Assembly (NCBI RefSeq): GCF_016863435.1
Contig: NZ_BOOW01000059.1
Location: 1 to 63,107 of the forward strand
DNA length: 63,107 nt
Direction of reading: 5' to 3'
DNA from: Sinosporangium siamense
GTDB taxonomy: Bacteria > Actinomycetota > Actinomycetes > Streptosporangiales > Streptosporangiaceae
The notes under the pieces were generated by a model that saw only the letters and a list, made by a program, of their open reading frames with translations, was not told where the DNA came from and ran no database searches. This document shows, in pieces, positions 58,515 through 61,988 of this stretch. Position 1 is the stretch's first letter, and every line of letters begins with the position of its first letter. Made by a program: the position numbers and the translations under genes.

Positions 58515-58877
58515 TCAGTTGAGAAGGTGGAGTTCGCTCAGGGTTTGCTTCAGCCGGTTCAGTGGCTCGTGCAACGCCGGGGTTTTCCGGAGGTGGTCTT
58601 CCAGGCGGGTCAGGAGGCGGGTGAGCGTGTGGGGGGCGGGGGTGGGGGCGCTGAGTTCCTCATGGAGGGCCGTGCCGTCGGCGAAGGCATCGGCGGGCAC
58701 TTCGGGGGCGTGCTTGGTCATGCATGCGAGCAGTGTGCGGGCATCCTGCAGTGCTCGCGAGGGGGGCTCGGGGGACGAGTGGGCGATGTCGCCGCGGATG
58801 GTGTTGCCGATGTTGATGCCGCCCTGGGTGATGTTGTGGAAGCCGTGGGGCCCGGAAAGGTTCCTGCCTGCGGTCAC
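58515..58877 (-). CDS. Small protein with amyloid-motif-like N-terminus, partner of the NB-ARC/TPR protein
   Basis: A 120-residue protein. N-terminal region MTAGRNLSGPHGF is followed by the Asn/Gly/Ile motif HNITQGGINIGNTIRGDIAH (residues 14-33), then a predicted helical bundle (SRALQDARTLLACM, LTRLLTRLEDHLRK, LNRLKQTLSELHLLN). The motif resembles short amyloid-signalling motifs found next to bacterial NLR genes; this is inference by pattern. The GTG start overlaps the stop of the NB-ARC gene (GTGA), so translation is coupled. No enzymatic domain. Confidence 0.75.
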   Translation of the reverse strand: MTAGRNLSGPHGFHNITQGGINIGNTIRGDIAHSSPEPPSRALQDARTLLACMTKHAPEVPADAFADGTALHEELSAPTPAPHTLTRLLTRLEDHLRKTPALHEPLNRLKQTLSELHLLN

Positions 58878-61471
58878 GAGTCTTCTCCTGACGGGTGTTG
58901 GAACGTCTCGGAAAGCTGCTCGGCCACCGTCAGGGTAACCGGGTGGTCGTCGCCCAGCACGCGGCTCAGCGCGGCGTGGGCGTTCCGGGCCAGGGCGGCG
59001 GCCTCTTCGTGGCGTCCAAGGTCGGTGAGGACGAGTGCGAGGTTGAACGCCGAGGTCAGCGTGTCGGGGTGGTCTTCGCCGAGGACGCGGCGGCGCCGGG
59101 CCAGGGTGTCCTCGTCCAGTTGTCCGGCCCGCTCCCACTCGCCGAGGGCGGCCAGGTCGCGGGCCAGGTTGTTGGCCGCGATGAGGACCTGCGGGTGGTC
59201 GTCGCCGAGGAGGCGGCGCCCGCGGGTCAGGGCGTCCTCGTGCAGGGCGCGTGCCTGGTCGTAGCGGCCGAGCGCGTAGAGGTTGAGCGCGAGGTTGTCG
59301 GTCGAGGCCAGGGTGTCGGGGTGGTCTTCGCCGAGGACTCGCCGGCGTCGGGCCAGGGTGTCCTCGTTCAGCTGTCTGGCCTGCTCGAGGTCGCCGAGGG
59401 CGGCCAGGTCGCCGGCCAGGTTGCCGGCGGAGGTGAGTGTGGACTGGTGGTCCTCGCCGAGGATGTCGCGCAGGCGGGAGAACGTGTCCCGGTCGAGTTC
59501 CATGGCGCCGGCCACGTCGCCGAGGGTGAACAACATGCGGGCGAGGTTGTTGGCCGAGGTGAGGGTGTCGGGGTGGTCTTCGCCCAGGATGCGGCGGAGG
59601 CGGTTGAACGTGTCGCGCATCAGGGTGCCCGCCTCCTCTCTCCCGCCGAGCTCGCTCAGGATGAGCGCGAGGTTGTTGGCGGAGGAGAGGGTGTCCGGGT
59701 GGTCGTCGCCGAGGAGGCGGCGCCGCCGGGTCAGCACGTCCTCGTGCAGGTCGCGCGCCTCGTCGTAGCGGCCCAGTGCGTGCAGGTCGCGGGCCAGGTT
59801 GTTGGCCGAAACGAGCACCTGCGGGTGGTCCTGTCCGAGCGCGCGCCGCAGGAGCCGGTGGGTGCTCCTGTCGATGTGCTCGGCCTCGTCGTAGCGGCCC
59901 AGCGCGTAAAGGTCCGCGGCCAGGCCGTCGGCCGACGCCAGAGTGTCGAGGTGCTCCTCGCCCAGCAGCCGCCGGCGCGCCTCCCAGGTCGAGCGGTCGG
60001 ACTCCAGCGCCTCGGCGTAGCGGCCGTTGCGGCGGTGCGCCTCGGCCAGCAACTGCCCGGCGCTCAAGGTCTGCTTGTGCTCGGCGCCCAGTTGTGCGCG
60101 CCACCGGTGGAAGACCCGCTCGGCCAGCCGTTCCGCGCCTCTGAACTCGCCCCTGCGCAGCAGATATCTGACCGTCTTGAGCATGGTGTCGCCCAGTGCG
60201 GGATCGTAGGCGCCGCCAAGTTCGGAGGCGAGCAGGTGCGGCAGCAGGAGCGCCCAGAACGACCACTCCGCCGGGTCCTCCGGGTCGTCGGGCACCGCTG
60301 CGGCGAGCACGGTCGCCACGGTGACGCGGGTCCGCGCGGTCTGCTCCTCACTGAGCTGACCGCGCAGCACGAGTTGCGTGAGCCGGTGCATGACGAAGCC
60401 GTTCGGCAGCACCTGTCCGAGCCCATACGAGCTGATCGCTCCAAGCAGCCGGTGAAGCTCGAACGGCGAGGTGGCGGCCGACGACAGCGGTGCGGGGAGC
60501 ACCTGGGCGGCGGCGGCGAACAGCTCCACCGGCACGGGGTCGGACGCCAGGAAGGCCATCAGTTCCAGCATCTGGAGTCCTGCCGCGTCCTGCTCGCCCA
60601 GCCGCTGCTTGGCGAGAGTGACGGTGGCGGTGAGCGAACCACCGATCCGGCCGGGCACGGACTCGCCGAGCACCTGGCCGGCGTTCCTGTCGAGTTCCTC
60701 CTGGTAGGAGGTGACCGGCATGCCCGTGGTGGACAGGAAGCCGGCCGCCTGCGCCACCGCCAGCGGCAGGTCGCCCAGAGTGCCGGCCAGGCGGTCCGCC
60801 TCAGGCTCGGTGAGCGCCGGGACCCTGTCCAGCAGCAGGGCCGTCGACTCGGCCCGCCCGAAGGCGCCCACCGGGACGACCTGGGCCAGCGAGTCCCAGC
60901 CCCGATGGCGGGAGGTGACGACGACGTGACCGGGACCACCCGGCAGGACCTCCCGCAGGGACTCGGGGCTCCCGGCGTCGTCGAAGATCAACAACCAGCG
61001 TGTGGAGGCGCTCAGCCGCTGAGACGCGGCGGCGAGCGCGGTCGAGATGTCGTCCTCGTGCGCGGCCCACCCCGCCGCGACGGCCAGTTCAGCGAGCTGC
61101 TCGCGCACCCGCTCGGCCTGCTCGGCGCCCACCCACCACACCAGGTCGTAGAAGCTGCGGAAGCGGTAGGCGTATTCGATGGCGAGCGTGGTCTTGCCCA
61201 CACCGCCGATGCCGATCAGCGCCTGGAGGACGGGGGAGTTCTCCTCCTCAAGCCGGGCCGACAGGTGCAGCAGGATGTCCTCGCGCCCTACGAAGTGGGG
61301 GGCGCGCGGGGGGACGTTCCACAGGTGTGAGGGCGTGCGAGGGCGGGGGTCGCCCGCGCCGGTCGCTGCCGTGGGCGGGCTGGAGCGGAAGCCCCGCAGA
61401 GCGACGAACACGCCGATCACCATGAGGGTTCCCGCGATGAGGGCGGCGATCCGGTCGATGTCGTTAAGCAT
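58874..61471 (-). CDS. Membrane-anchored NB-ARC/TPR (NLR-like STAND) protein
   Basis: An 865-residue protein: one N-terminal membrane helix (about 7-26), an NB-ARC ATPase (PHFVGREDILLHL, Walker A GIGGVGKTT at 87-95, Walker B RWLLIFDDA at 158-166, DLPLAVAQAAGFL GxP region), a helical/winged middle, and nine full plus one partial TPR units of about 42 residues with consensus RRxLGEDHPDTLxSANNLA. STAND proteins act as ligand-triggered switches in defence or signalling. Start ATG 61471 overlaps the upstream gene by 8 nt; the longer frame to 61522 is possible. The NB-ARC segment resembles the FxSxx-COOH system TPR protein, but no FxsA or radical SAM gene is here. Confidence 0.9.
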   Translation of the reverse strand: MLNDIDRIAALIAGTLMVIGVFVALRGFRSSPPTAATGAGDPRPRTPSHLWNVPPRAPHFVGREDILLHLSARLEEENSPVLQALIGIGGVGKTTLAIEYAYRFRSFYDLVWWVGAEQAERVREQLAELAVAAGWAAHEDDISTALAAASQRLSASTRWLLIFDDAGSPESLREVLPGGPGHVVVTSRHRGWDSLAQVVPVGAFGRAESTALLLDRVPALTEPEADRLAGTLGDLPLAVAQAAGFLSTTGMPVTSYQEELDRNAGQVLGESVPGRIGGSLTATVTLAKQRLGEQDAAGLQMLELMAFLASDPVPVELFAAAAQVLPAPLSSAATSPFELHRLLGAISSYGLGQVLPNGFVMHRLTQLVLRGQLSEEQTARTRVTVATVLAAAVPDDPEDPAEWSFWALLLPHLLASELGGAYDPALGDTMLKTVRYLLRRGEFRGAERLAERVFHRWRAQLGAEHKQTLSAGQLLAEAHRRNGRYAEALESDRSTWEARRRLLGEEHLDTLASADGLAADLYALGRYDEAEHIDRSTHRLLRRALGQDHPQVLVSANNLARDLHALGRYDEARDLHEDVLTRRRRLLGDDHPDTLSSANNLALILSELGGREEAGTLMRDTFNRLRRILGEDHPDTLTSANNLARMLFTLGDVAGAMELDRDTFSRLRDILGEDHQSTLTSAGNLAGDLAALGDLEQARQLNEDTLARRRRVLGEDHPDTLASTDNLALNLYALGRYDQARALHEDALTRGRRLLGDDHPQVLIAANNLARDLAALGEWERAGQLDEDTLARRRRVLGEDHPDTLTSAFNLALVLTDLGRHEEAAALARNAHAALSRVLGDDHPVTLTVAEQLSETFQHPSGEDS

Positions 61472-61928
61472 GGGGCTGCCGGCCGGGGTGCGATACGGAG
61501 ACCAGGATGAGGCCCCAGACAAAGGAGACCCCGCACGTGATCAATGAGTAGAAGGCCACGACCTCACCGGAGGATTTGCCGGCCTTGACGAAGGCGTAGG
61601 CCATCGCGAAGACGAGCGCGACGATCAGCGTCAGGACACAGACGGTGATCTGCCAGGGGGCCGCCGTCTCCACCCGCGTTCTGTCATAAAGCAGTTCACC
61701 TGCCGCGCTGAAGAGCATGCCGATGTTGACCAGATAAAGTTCTCCCTTGCCGAGAATGCCGGCTGCCGTCATTTCCCCCTCGGCCAATGCCACGGCGGCG
61801 AGGTCCGCGAGGATGCCCAGGAGCGCCAGCAAGAGGCTGAAAAGGATCCATTTGTGTAACTTGACCCGCAGGGGATTGGCCGGATCCTTGACCGGCCCGG
61901 CGTGCTGGGGGGCTTGCGGTGGGGGCAT
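61464..61928 (-). CDS. Four-helix membrane protein, first gene of the NLR-like operon
   Basis: A 154-residue protein with a Pro/Gln-rich N-terminus and four hydrophobic helices (about 28-50, 62-82, 92-118, 123-146; e.g. WILFSLLLALLGILADLAAV, YSLITCGVSFVWGLILVSV). No catalytic motif. ATG 61928 has AAGGA 7 nt upstream (61931 and TTG 61946 are alternatives). Its stop overlaps the NB-ARC start, so the two are coupled. It could be the membrane effector or the sensor of the system (inference). Confidence 0.8.
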   Translation of the reverse strand: MPPPQAPQHAGPVKDPANPLRVKLHKWILFSLLLALLGILADLAAVALAEGEMTAAGILGKGELYLVNIGMLFSAAGELLYDRTRVETAAPWQITVCVLTLIVALVFAMAYAFVKAGKSSGEVVAFYSLITCGVSFVWGLILVSVSHPGRQPHA

Positions 61929-61961
61929 CATCGCATCCTTGGGCAAGAGGGCAGGCGATGC

Positions 61962-61988
61962 CCTTAAGCATAGAAGGCCGGCTTAAGG
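61962..61988. promoter_or_regulatory. Perfect inverted repeat in the promoter of the NLR-like operon
   Basis: CCTTAAGC (61962-61969) and GCTTAAGG (61981-61988), 11-nt spacer, 33 nt upstream of the first start. On the minus strand TATGCT (61967-61972) could be the -10 box, so the repeat overlaps the promoter. Confidence 0.55.

Follow-up and report, generated by a model that had tools for sequence, protein, structure and literature searches.

In the two-gene conflict system that Kaur et al. 2020 designate 'System 4', EACC1 is coupled to a caspase-type gene, and the available part of that account (PMC7159879) mentions no partner with four transmembrane (TM) segments for EACC1. In BASS systems the amyloid motif lies at the C-terminus of the Bell protein, and bacterial amyloid signaling motifs were selected as similar motifs encoded by adjacent genes, according to the available part of PMC7889193. 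Here we describe an operon on the minus strand of a contig from Sinosporangium siamense (NZ_BOOW01000059.1, positions 1 to 63,107; the whole 63,107-nucleotide stretch is termed the window), which encodes, in this order, a 4-TM membrane protein, an NLR-like protein and a small protein. Gene coordinates verify that these three minus-strand genes overlap by 8 and 4 nucleotides (nt), as an initial annotation made from the sequence had stated. The operon is real and unusual, made of known as well as undescribed parts, and two of the three proteins come from modules that elsewhere accompany membrane proteins. The reading we favor, to which we give a little less than an even chance, is that a membrane-tethered NLR forms a signaling unit with a 4-TM module and a DUF5955-like adaptor. 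The features of the operon are as follows (TPR, tetratricopeptide repeat).

61464..61931, minus strand: gene for the 4-TM membrane protein, 155 residues, start ATG, with TTG at 61946 as an alternative
58874..61471, minus strand: gene for the NB-ARC/TPR protein (NLR-like, FxsT-like), TM-anchored, 865 residues, start ATG
61391..61453, minus strand: N-terminal single TM-like helix of the NLR by hydropathy, followed by Arg residues
60902..61270, minus strand: NB-ARC match (Pfam), with the P-loop GIGGVGKTT
58949..60151, minus strand: about ten 42-residue TPRs (TPR_10, ten stretches), limits approximate
58515..58877, minus strand: gene for the small DUF5955-like protein, 120 residues, start GTG
58779..58838, minus strand: N-terminal motif HNITQGGINIGNTIRGDIAH, residues 14-33, amyloid-style by analogy, of low confidence in the AlphaFold2 model
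58533..58763, minus strand: predicted four-helix DUF5955-like domain, residues 39-115, from AlphaFold2 and profile comparison

A high-GC codon-position bias is present in all three genes, with GC at positions 1/2/3 of 0.68/0.50/0.85 in the small gene, 0.76/0.48/0.91 in the NLR gene and 0.64/0.44/0.81 in the 4-TM gene; because the bias is of this type, the small open reading frame (ORF) is very probably a gene. The common promoter initially proposed for the trio did not emerge, as a scan of the operon region for sigma-70-type promoters found none, a result that carries little weight in an actinobacterium.

The first protein matches no Pfam or NCBIfam family at cut-off and bears a [GS]-x-[GA]-[EDQ]-type motif where TM2 begins. 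Its 4-TM character is upheld by an AlphaFold2 model from nine sequences, in which four long helices span residues 20-50, 56-85, 91-117 and 122-147 (predicted local distance difference test score 72.5, predicted template modeling score 0.49), and a structure search with this model returned nothing matching at E 0.001 or better. In the searches for relatives of this protein and of the small protein, only a limited number of candidates was scored per genome, so that the absence of relatives is not proof. With the single 4-TM query, three of 150 genomes of the family had a match, namely the genome's own copy and two judged spurious (G006 and G105), one lying in a permease-like gene and the other antisense to a called gene. 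A two-row profile matched three of 296 genomes of the phylum (own, G214 and G257), of which G257 was rejected with just 12.8 bits against a nine-member profile; a three-row profile matched three of 394 genomes of the class (own, G635 and G849); and a five-row profile matched five of 295 genomes of the genus of G849 (G849 and four more). No relative appeared in a scan of genome contigs (query A2) or of plasmids (two members). The 4-TM family is rare in the genomes searched and is without a Pfam name.

Eight 4-TM relatives besides that of the window were thereby available: a paralog in the same genome (L010), L093, L103, and the set of L102 and L109-L112 from one genus. Behind each of these eight 4-TM genes, at -19 to +9 nt from its end, starts the next gene, whose product begins with a single TM-like helix (1-TM). 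The same arrangement holds for 11 of 585 control genes and for 3 of 18 small multi-TM genes; a coarser base rate is the N-terminal TM in 8 of 89 downstream genes of tight pairs, the 585-gene control being the closer. These controls serve as a guide and no strict test, because the limits were set after the pairs had been seen. A Pfam scan of the eight 1-TM partners placed EACC1 above its cut-off of 23.6 bits in L010 (42.9) and L109 (30.8) and below it in L102 (19.8). EACC1 genes generally do not show this neighborhood: a survey listed 34 places in 61 genomes, and at the 32 examined (30 with flanks of about 1.5 kb, two with longer ones) a 4-TM neighbor was found once, at the paralog from our own genome. 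That paralog, at 7240-7995 of L010 (G000:C38), is the second 4-TM gene of the genome and is followed by a short EACC1 protein without the N-terminal part of the Pfam model. A further locus, L110 (5427-9670), has a transposase-like gene between the 4-TM/1-TM pair and an opposite-strand gene whose product has a caspase-like N-terminus by eye (no Pfam caspase match) and a PQQ beta-propeller; its 4-TM protein has an N-terminal tail rich in TITxT.

In the window, the slot held elsewhere by the 1-TM gene is occupied by the NLR, with its N-terminal helix and its 8-nt overlap. The initial description of this protein as a membrane helix, NB-ARC and about ten TPRs is borne out by hydropathy and Pfam, the TM-like segment having a mean hydropathy of 2.28 and the NB-ARC match scoring 25.8 bits, just above the cut-off of 23.5. 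This topology would place the N-terminus outside and the NB-ARC domain inside. Of 61 family genomes, 44 (our own counted) have NB-ARC homologs at E 1e-30, and from the places listed we examined a subset of 40 loci (38 from the family search and two from our own genome). Among the 42 homologous ORFs of these loci, 41 have no hydrophobic stretch above threshold in the up to 120 residues before NB-ARC, and in the single ORF flagged the stretch overlaps the end of a helix-turn-helix domain.

The homologs also bring in a serious rival, which is that the protein is a divergent FxSxx-COOH-type (FxsT) NLR engaged in peptide or developmental signaling without defence, with the 4-TM and small genes as incidental neighbors. 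Against the NCBIfam TPR model of the FxSxx-COOH system (NF040586) the NLR scores 804.3 bits, far above the cut-off of 300, which makes it an FxsT-type NB-ARC/TPR protein. By a pattern of our own (C[DN][LMI][AN]C..CY[IVM]Y), an FxsB-like radical SAM motif is present in 17 of the 40 homolog loci, and the genome itself holds an NLR locus, L086 (G000:C13), in which a radical-SAM-like gene and a 67-residue ORF ending in FVSSI accompany the NB-ARC protein and which looks like a genuine FxSxx system. The same pattern is absent throughout the window, however, and the N-terminal TM helix, the two overlaps and the 1-TM genes that 4-TM genes precede elsewhere all speak against incidental neighbors. We therefore regard the FxsT-like role as unlikely while taking it seriously.

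The small protein connects the operon to a second module. Its direct relatives in genome contigs, plasmids, viral contigs and, at E 0.001, 297 genomes of the order amounted to its own copy only. Among 150 genomes of the family, three weak matches were found besides its own; two of these (G023 and G033) were discarded because they fall within longer ORFs, and the third (G013, E 0.009, locus L004) proved a genuine relative. In L004 the small protein overlaps by 4 nt a 450-residue protein with two predicted TM segments, and a similar motif stands on both, NYGIQQSGGVSQVGVQAVG near the N-terminus of the small protein and NQGIIQSGGISMVGSQAVG near the C-terminus of the membrane protein. The L004 small protein scores 19.1 bits against Pfam DUF5955 (PF19380), under the cut-off of 27.1. 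Across 250 genomes of the family, DUF5955 matches occur in 60 at E 0.01 and in 23 above cut-off, the weak ones including noise because 2 of 14 control genomes also match below cut-off.

Compared with a profile of 11 DUF5955-locus proteins, the window's small protein aligns with an hhalign probability of 93% (P 3.5e-7); a value of 98.5% comes from a profile that contains L004 and is not independent. A hidden Markov model of the DUF5955-locus profile scores the protein at 22.2 bits, the next best of 356 other proteins reaching 15.2, and the helical part by itself scores 18.9 bits where the best of 2000 shuffles reaches 11.1. AlphaFold2, run on the single sequence, gives a confident four-helix domain at residues 39-115 and a low-confidence N-terminus with the motif, in keeping with the initial placement of HNITQGGINIGNTIRGDIAH at residues 14-33 ahead of a helical domain. 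A structure search with this model found nothing matching at E 0.001 or better, and a PDB sequence search with the DUF5955 profile gave a best E of only 0.13. From these profile comparisons, the small protein is a distant relative of Pfam DUF5955, with a motif followed by a four-helix domain. The term DUF5955 was not found in the literature searched.

The likeness of the two motifs in L004 extends to DUF5955 loci at large. We drew on L004 and on 20 DUF5955 loci, none longer than about 11 kb and all from one bacterial family, and matched residues 1-45 of each small protein (1-55 for L004) against the C-terminal 55 residues of every partner. A first run covered 14 pairs, L004 and the 13 of 20 loci with a called adjacent multi-TM partner, leaving out L177, L183, L185 and L187 (no partner called), L188 (small gene uncalled), and L182 and L189 (different partner). 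For nine pairs the cognate tail took first rank, for two the second, for two the third and for one the sixth. In 20,000 permutations the observed sum was not attained once, and a score as high as that of the tail came from 2 of 277 other partner windows. Because the L004 pair had given the idea and some scores had already been seen, L004 was dropped and the analysis repeated for all loci in which a same-strand ORF of at least 200 residues lies upstream, which gave 18 of 20 (L183 has none, and the small gene of L188 is uncalled). Here the cognate tail came out on top for 9 of 18 loci, again with none of 20,000 permutations reaching the sum, and 18 of 442 other partner windows scored as high as the tail. 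The rerun includes three bad cases. In L178 the rule picked a wrong ORF; in L182 and L189 the motif is inside the partner and not in its tail, which accounts for their ranks of 17 and 16. Without L182 and L189, the figures are 9 of 16 in first place, none of 20,000 permutations and 6 of 430 windows. All loci come from one bacterial family and several are closely alike, so that the pairs do not count as independent.

Taken as a set, DUF5955 proteins of other genomes thus share a motif with the membrane protein encoded next to them, and a motif-to-tail match was noted for L004 and for L176-L195 except L183 and L188. As an example, the motif RGSNFGNAPGSNFGHAPGS of the L192 small protein faces RGSNFGNAPGSNFGNAPGS in the tail of the adjacent multi-TM protein. 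Pfam scans of eight partners gave no family in five (L180, L184, L193, L195 and L004) and an FHA domain in three (L192, L189 and L182), and a HerA-like ATPase lies upstream in L180. At L182 (5134-6320) and L189 (4596-5773), the DUF5955-like protein adjoins an FHA-domain membrane protein in which the similar motif is internal. A match between motif and tail is as expected of homotypic, amyloid-like signaling, and by this analogy the DUF5955 proteins and their membrane neighbors are a candidate new family of amyloid-signaling pairs. The most interesting result, the motif sharing in DUF5955 loci together with the 4-TM/1-TM pair, is partly beyond the trio.

An amyloid-motif-like small protein was part of the initial annotation, and the claim stands in so far as a DUF5955-like family shares its motif with a membrane neighbor; in the window's NLR and 4-TM protein no counterpart was found. 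The corresponding alternative is a canonical BASS-type amyloid NLR signalosome, in which one amyloid motif common to the NLR and its effector passes on activation. An NLR, a membrane protein and a motif-bearing small protein do occur together here, and the motif has a core, GINIG, that resembles the GVQVG of a BASS3 peptide, and the 471 other proteins of the loci, with 177,591 residues, nowhere contain the pattern G[IV][NQ][IV]G. The likeness is limited to this G-[IV]-[NQ]-[IV]-G core, however, and in alignment with the one BASS3 peptide used, 514 of 1239 protein pieces reach the motif's score, as do 417 of 2000 shuffles, so that the likeness of residues 14-33 to this published peptide is not above chance. 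BASS3/RHIM membership is accordingly unproven. An archaeal peptide from the same paper was also rejected as a match, its score of 14 being reached by 1208 of 1239 pieces. The NLR starts with a TM helix where a BASS system would have an amyloid motif, and the window's motif precedes a helical domain, unlike the C-terminal motif of Bell proteins in the available part of PMC7889193. We consider this alternative improbable.

Several results weigh against the signaling unit that we favor. A counterpart of HNITQGGINIGNTIRGDIAH was found neither in the whole NLR, where the best local score is 28, nor in the 4-TM protein, where it is 26. Scores of 30-122 are reached by cognate DUF5955 pairs against the 55-residue tail, and a counterpart as diverged as the weakest pairs (30-41), which would scarcely be noticed in a search of this kind, could be missed. 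Elsewhere in the genome there is no counterpart either, a single other match (E 1.55) being judged spurious, and neither the small protein nor the genome has a Pfam PF19380 match. The limits of the 4-TM/1-TM test were chosen post hoc, five of the eight relatives come from one genus, and an EACC1 match is absent in five of the eight partners (L093, L103, L110, L111 and L112) and sub-cut-off in one. An NB-ARC gene occurs in none of the eight other 4-TM loci and in none of the 20 DUF5955 loci. Conversely, the 4-TM profile matches none of the 40 NLR loci, and no DUF5955-like protein besides the window's own was found in NLR or 4-TM loci, the loci compared being about 5-19 kb long and some ending at contig ends. 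The trio is a singleton in the genomes searched and is compatible with a chance neighborhood. What survives of the initial reading as an NLR operon is the tight arrangement of an NLR-like protein, a membrane protein and a small protein from a motif family; its conservation in relatives, the lack of which the initial annotation itself had named as a refutation, does not, because no co-occurrence of trio parts was seen in the loci searched.

Bacterial STAND/NLR proteins have a general role in phage defence, and a third alternative is accordingly abortive infection directed against phage, in which the 4-TM protein would be the effector that forms pores while the small protein would act as its co-activator or as an antidote. 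Both EACC1 and FxSxx-associated AP-ATPases are described in predicted conflict systems in the available part of PMC7159879. The surroundings of the operon argue the other way: PADLOC returned no match for the trio at E 0.1, and seven neighbors scanned matched only a TnpB-like end and a WYL-type regulator, so that nothing here places the operon in a defence island. Likewise, viral contigs and plasmids held no small-protein relative, and plasmids no 4-TM relative. We see abortive infection as possible, on the doubtful side, and a role in defence may apply to the operon under the favored reading as well. The insertion sequence element initially noted nearby is the C-terminal end of a TnpB/Cas12f-like protein (PF07282; 62111-63105), which lies where the window ends and has a partial MFS gene as its neighbor.

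In the favored signaling unit, the NLR would join the 4-TM protein through its N-terminal helix in a membrane complex, analogous to one presumed elsewhere between a 4-TM protein and a separate 1-TM (in part EACC1) partner. The cytoplasmic TPR array may sense a ligand, upon which NB-ARC would exchange nucleotide and the complexes would cluster, and clustering could open or disturb the 4-TM assembly so that the cell is harmed or signaled. The DUF5955-like adaptor might dock through its four-helix domain on the clustered receptor, or else on the 4-TM protein, and so bring its flexible motif to a high local concentration; the motif could then assemble with itself or act as a template for the same motif on a partner whose gene lies elsewhere. 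Of this picture, the overlaps, the domain make-up, the recurrent 4-TM/1-TM pair, the distant link to DUF5955 and the motif sharing in other genomes are observed, and the complexes, their topology, the ligand, the nucleotide switch, membrane damage, amyloid assembly and a part in defence are inferred. A bolder version, which we put forward tentatively and hold to be less likely than not, is that the NLR replaces the 1-TM subunit of an undescribed 4-TM/1-TM module and passes its signal on within the membrane plane; a DUF5955-type adaptor that it recruits would relay this signal, by a prion-like tip, to a partner elsewhere in the cell. The DUF5955 proteins as a whole would then be a new family of amyloid-signaling adaptors, every one of them fitting the tail of the membrane protein that belongs to it.

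Three poorly understood and testable things meet in this operon, namely the 4-TM/1-TM pair, a membrane-anchored NLR in the place of the 1-TM protein, and the motif sharing of DUF5955. The pair, in part with EACC1, is absent from the available EACC1 account in PMC7159879. If DUF5955 motifs assemble homotypically, bacterial amyloid signaling would extend beyond NLR/Bell pairs, and the extension would reach membrane proteins that lie beside a HerA-like ATPase or carry FHA domains.

Set against known systems, the operon is like each in part. With EACC1 'System 4' it has in common the 1-TM proteins behind the 4-TM family, two of eight of which contain EACC1 above cut-off, whereas the partner there is of caspase type (available part of PMC7159879) and the window has an NLR in the 1-TM slot; EACC1 has no Pfam match in the trio, and no caspase-type gene is among the four window neighbors scanned with Pfam, the other window genes having been viewed by eye only. 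The FxSxx-COOH TPR protein (FxsT, NF040586) shares NB-ARC and a TPR_10 array with the window's NLR, which differs in its N-terminal TM helix, its other partners and a window free of the FxsB-like motif. Like the BASS NLR/Bell signalosomes (available parts of PMC7889193, PMC12261475 and PMC8086366), the operon has overlapping genes that supply an NLR, a membrane protein and a short motif; unlike in those, no motif common to its genes was found, its motif precedes a helical domain, and the likeness to the BASS3 peptide is not significant. The DUF5955 loci, finally, share the G/N/I/V-rich N-terminal motif ahead of a helical domain and are related by profile, and where they place a multi-TM protein with a matching tail next to the small protein, the window has an NLR.

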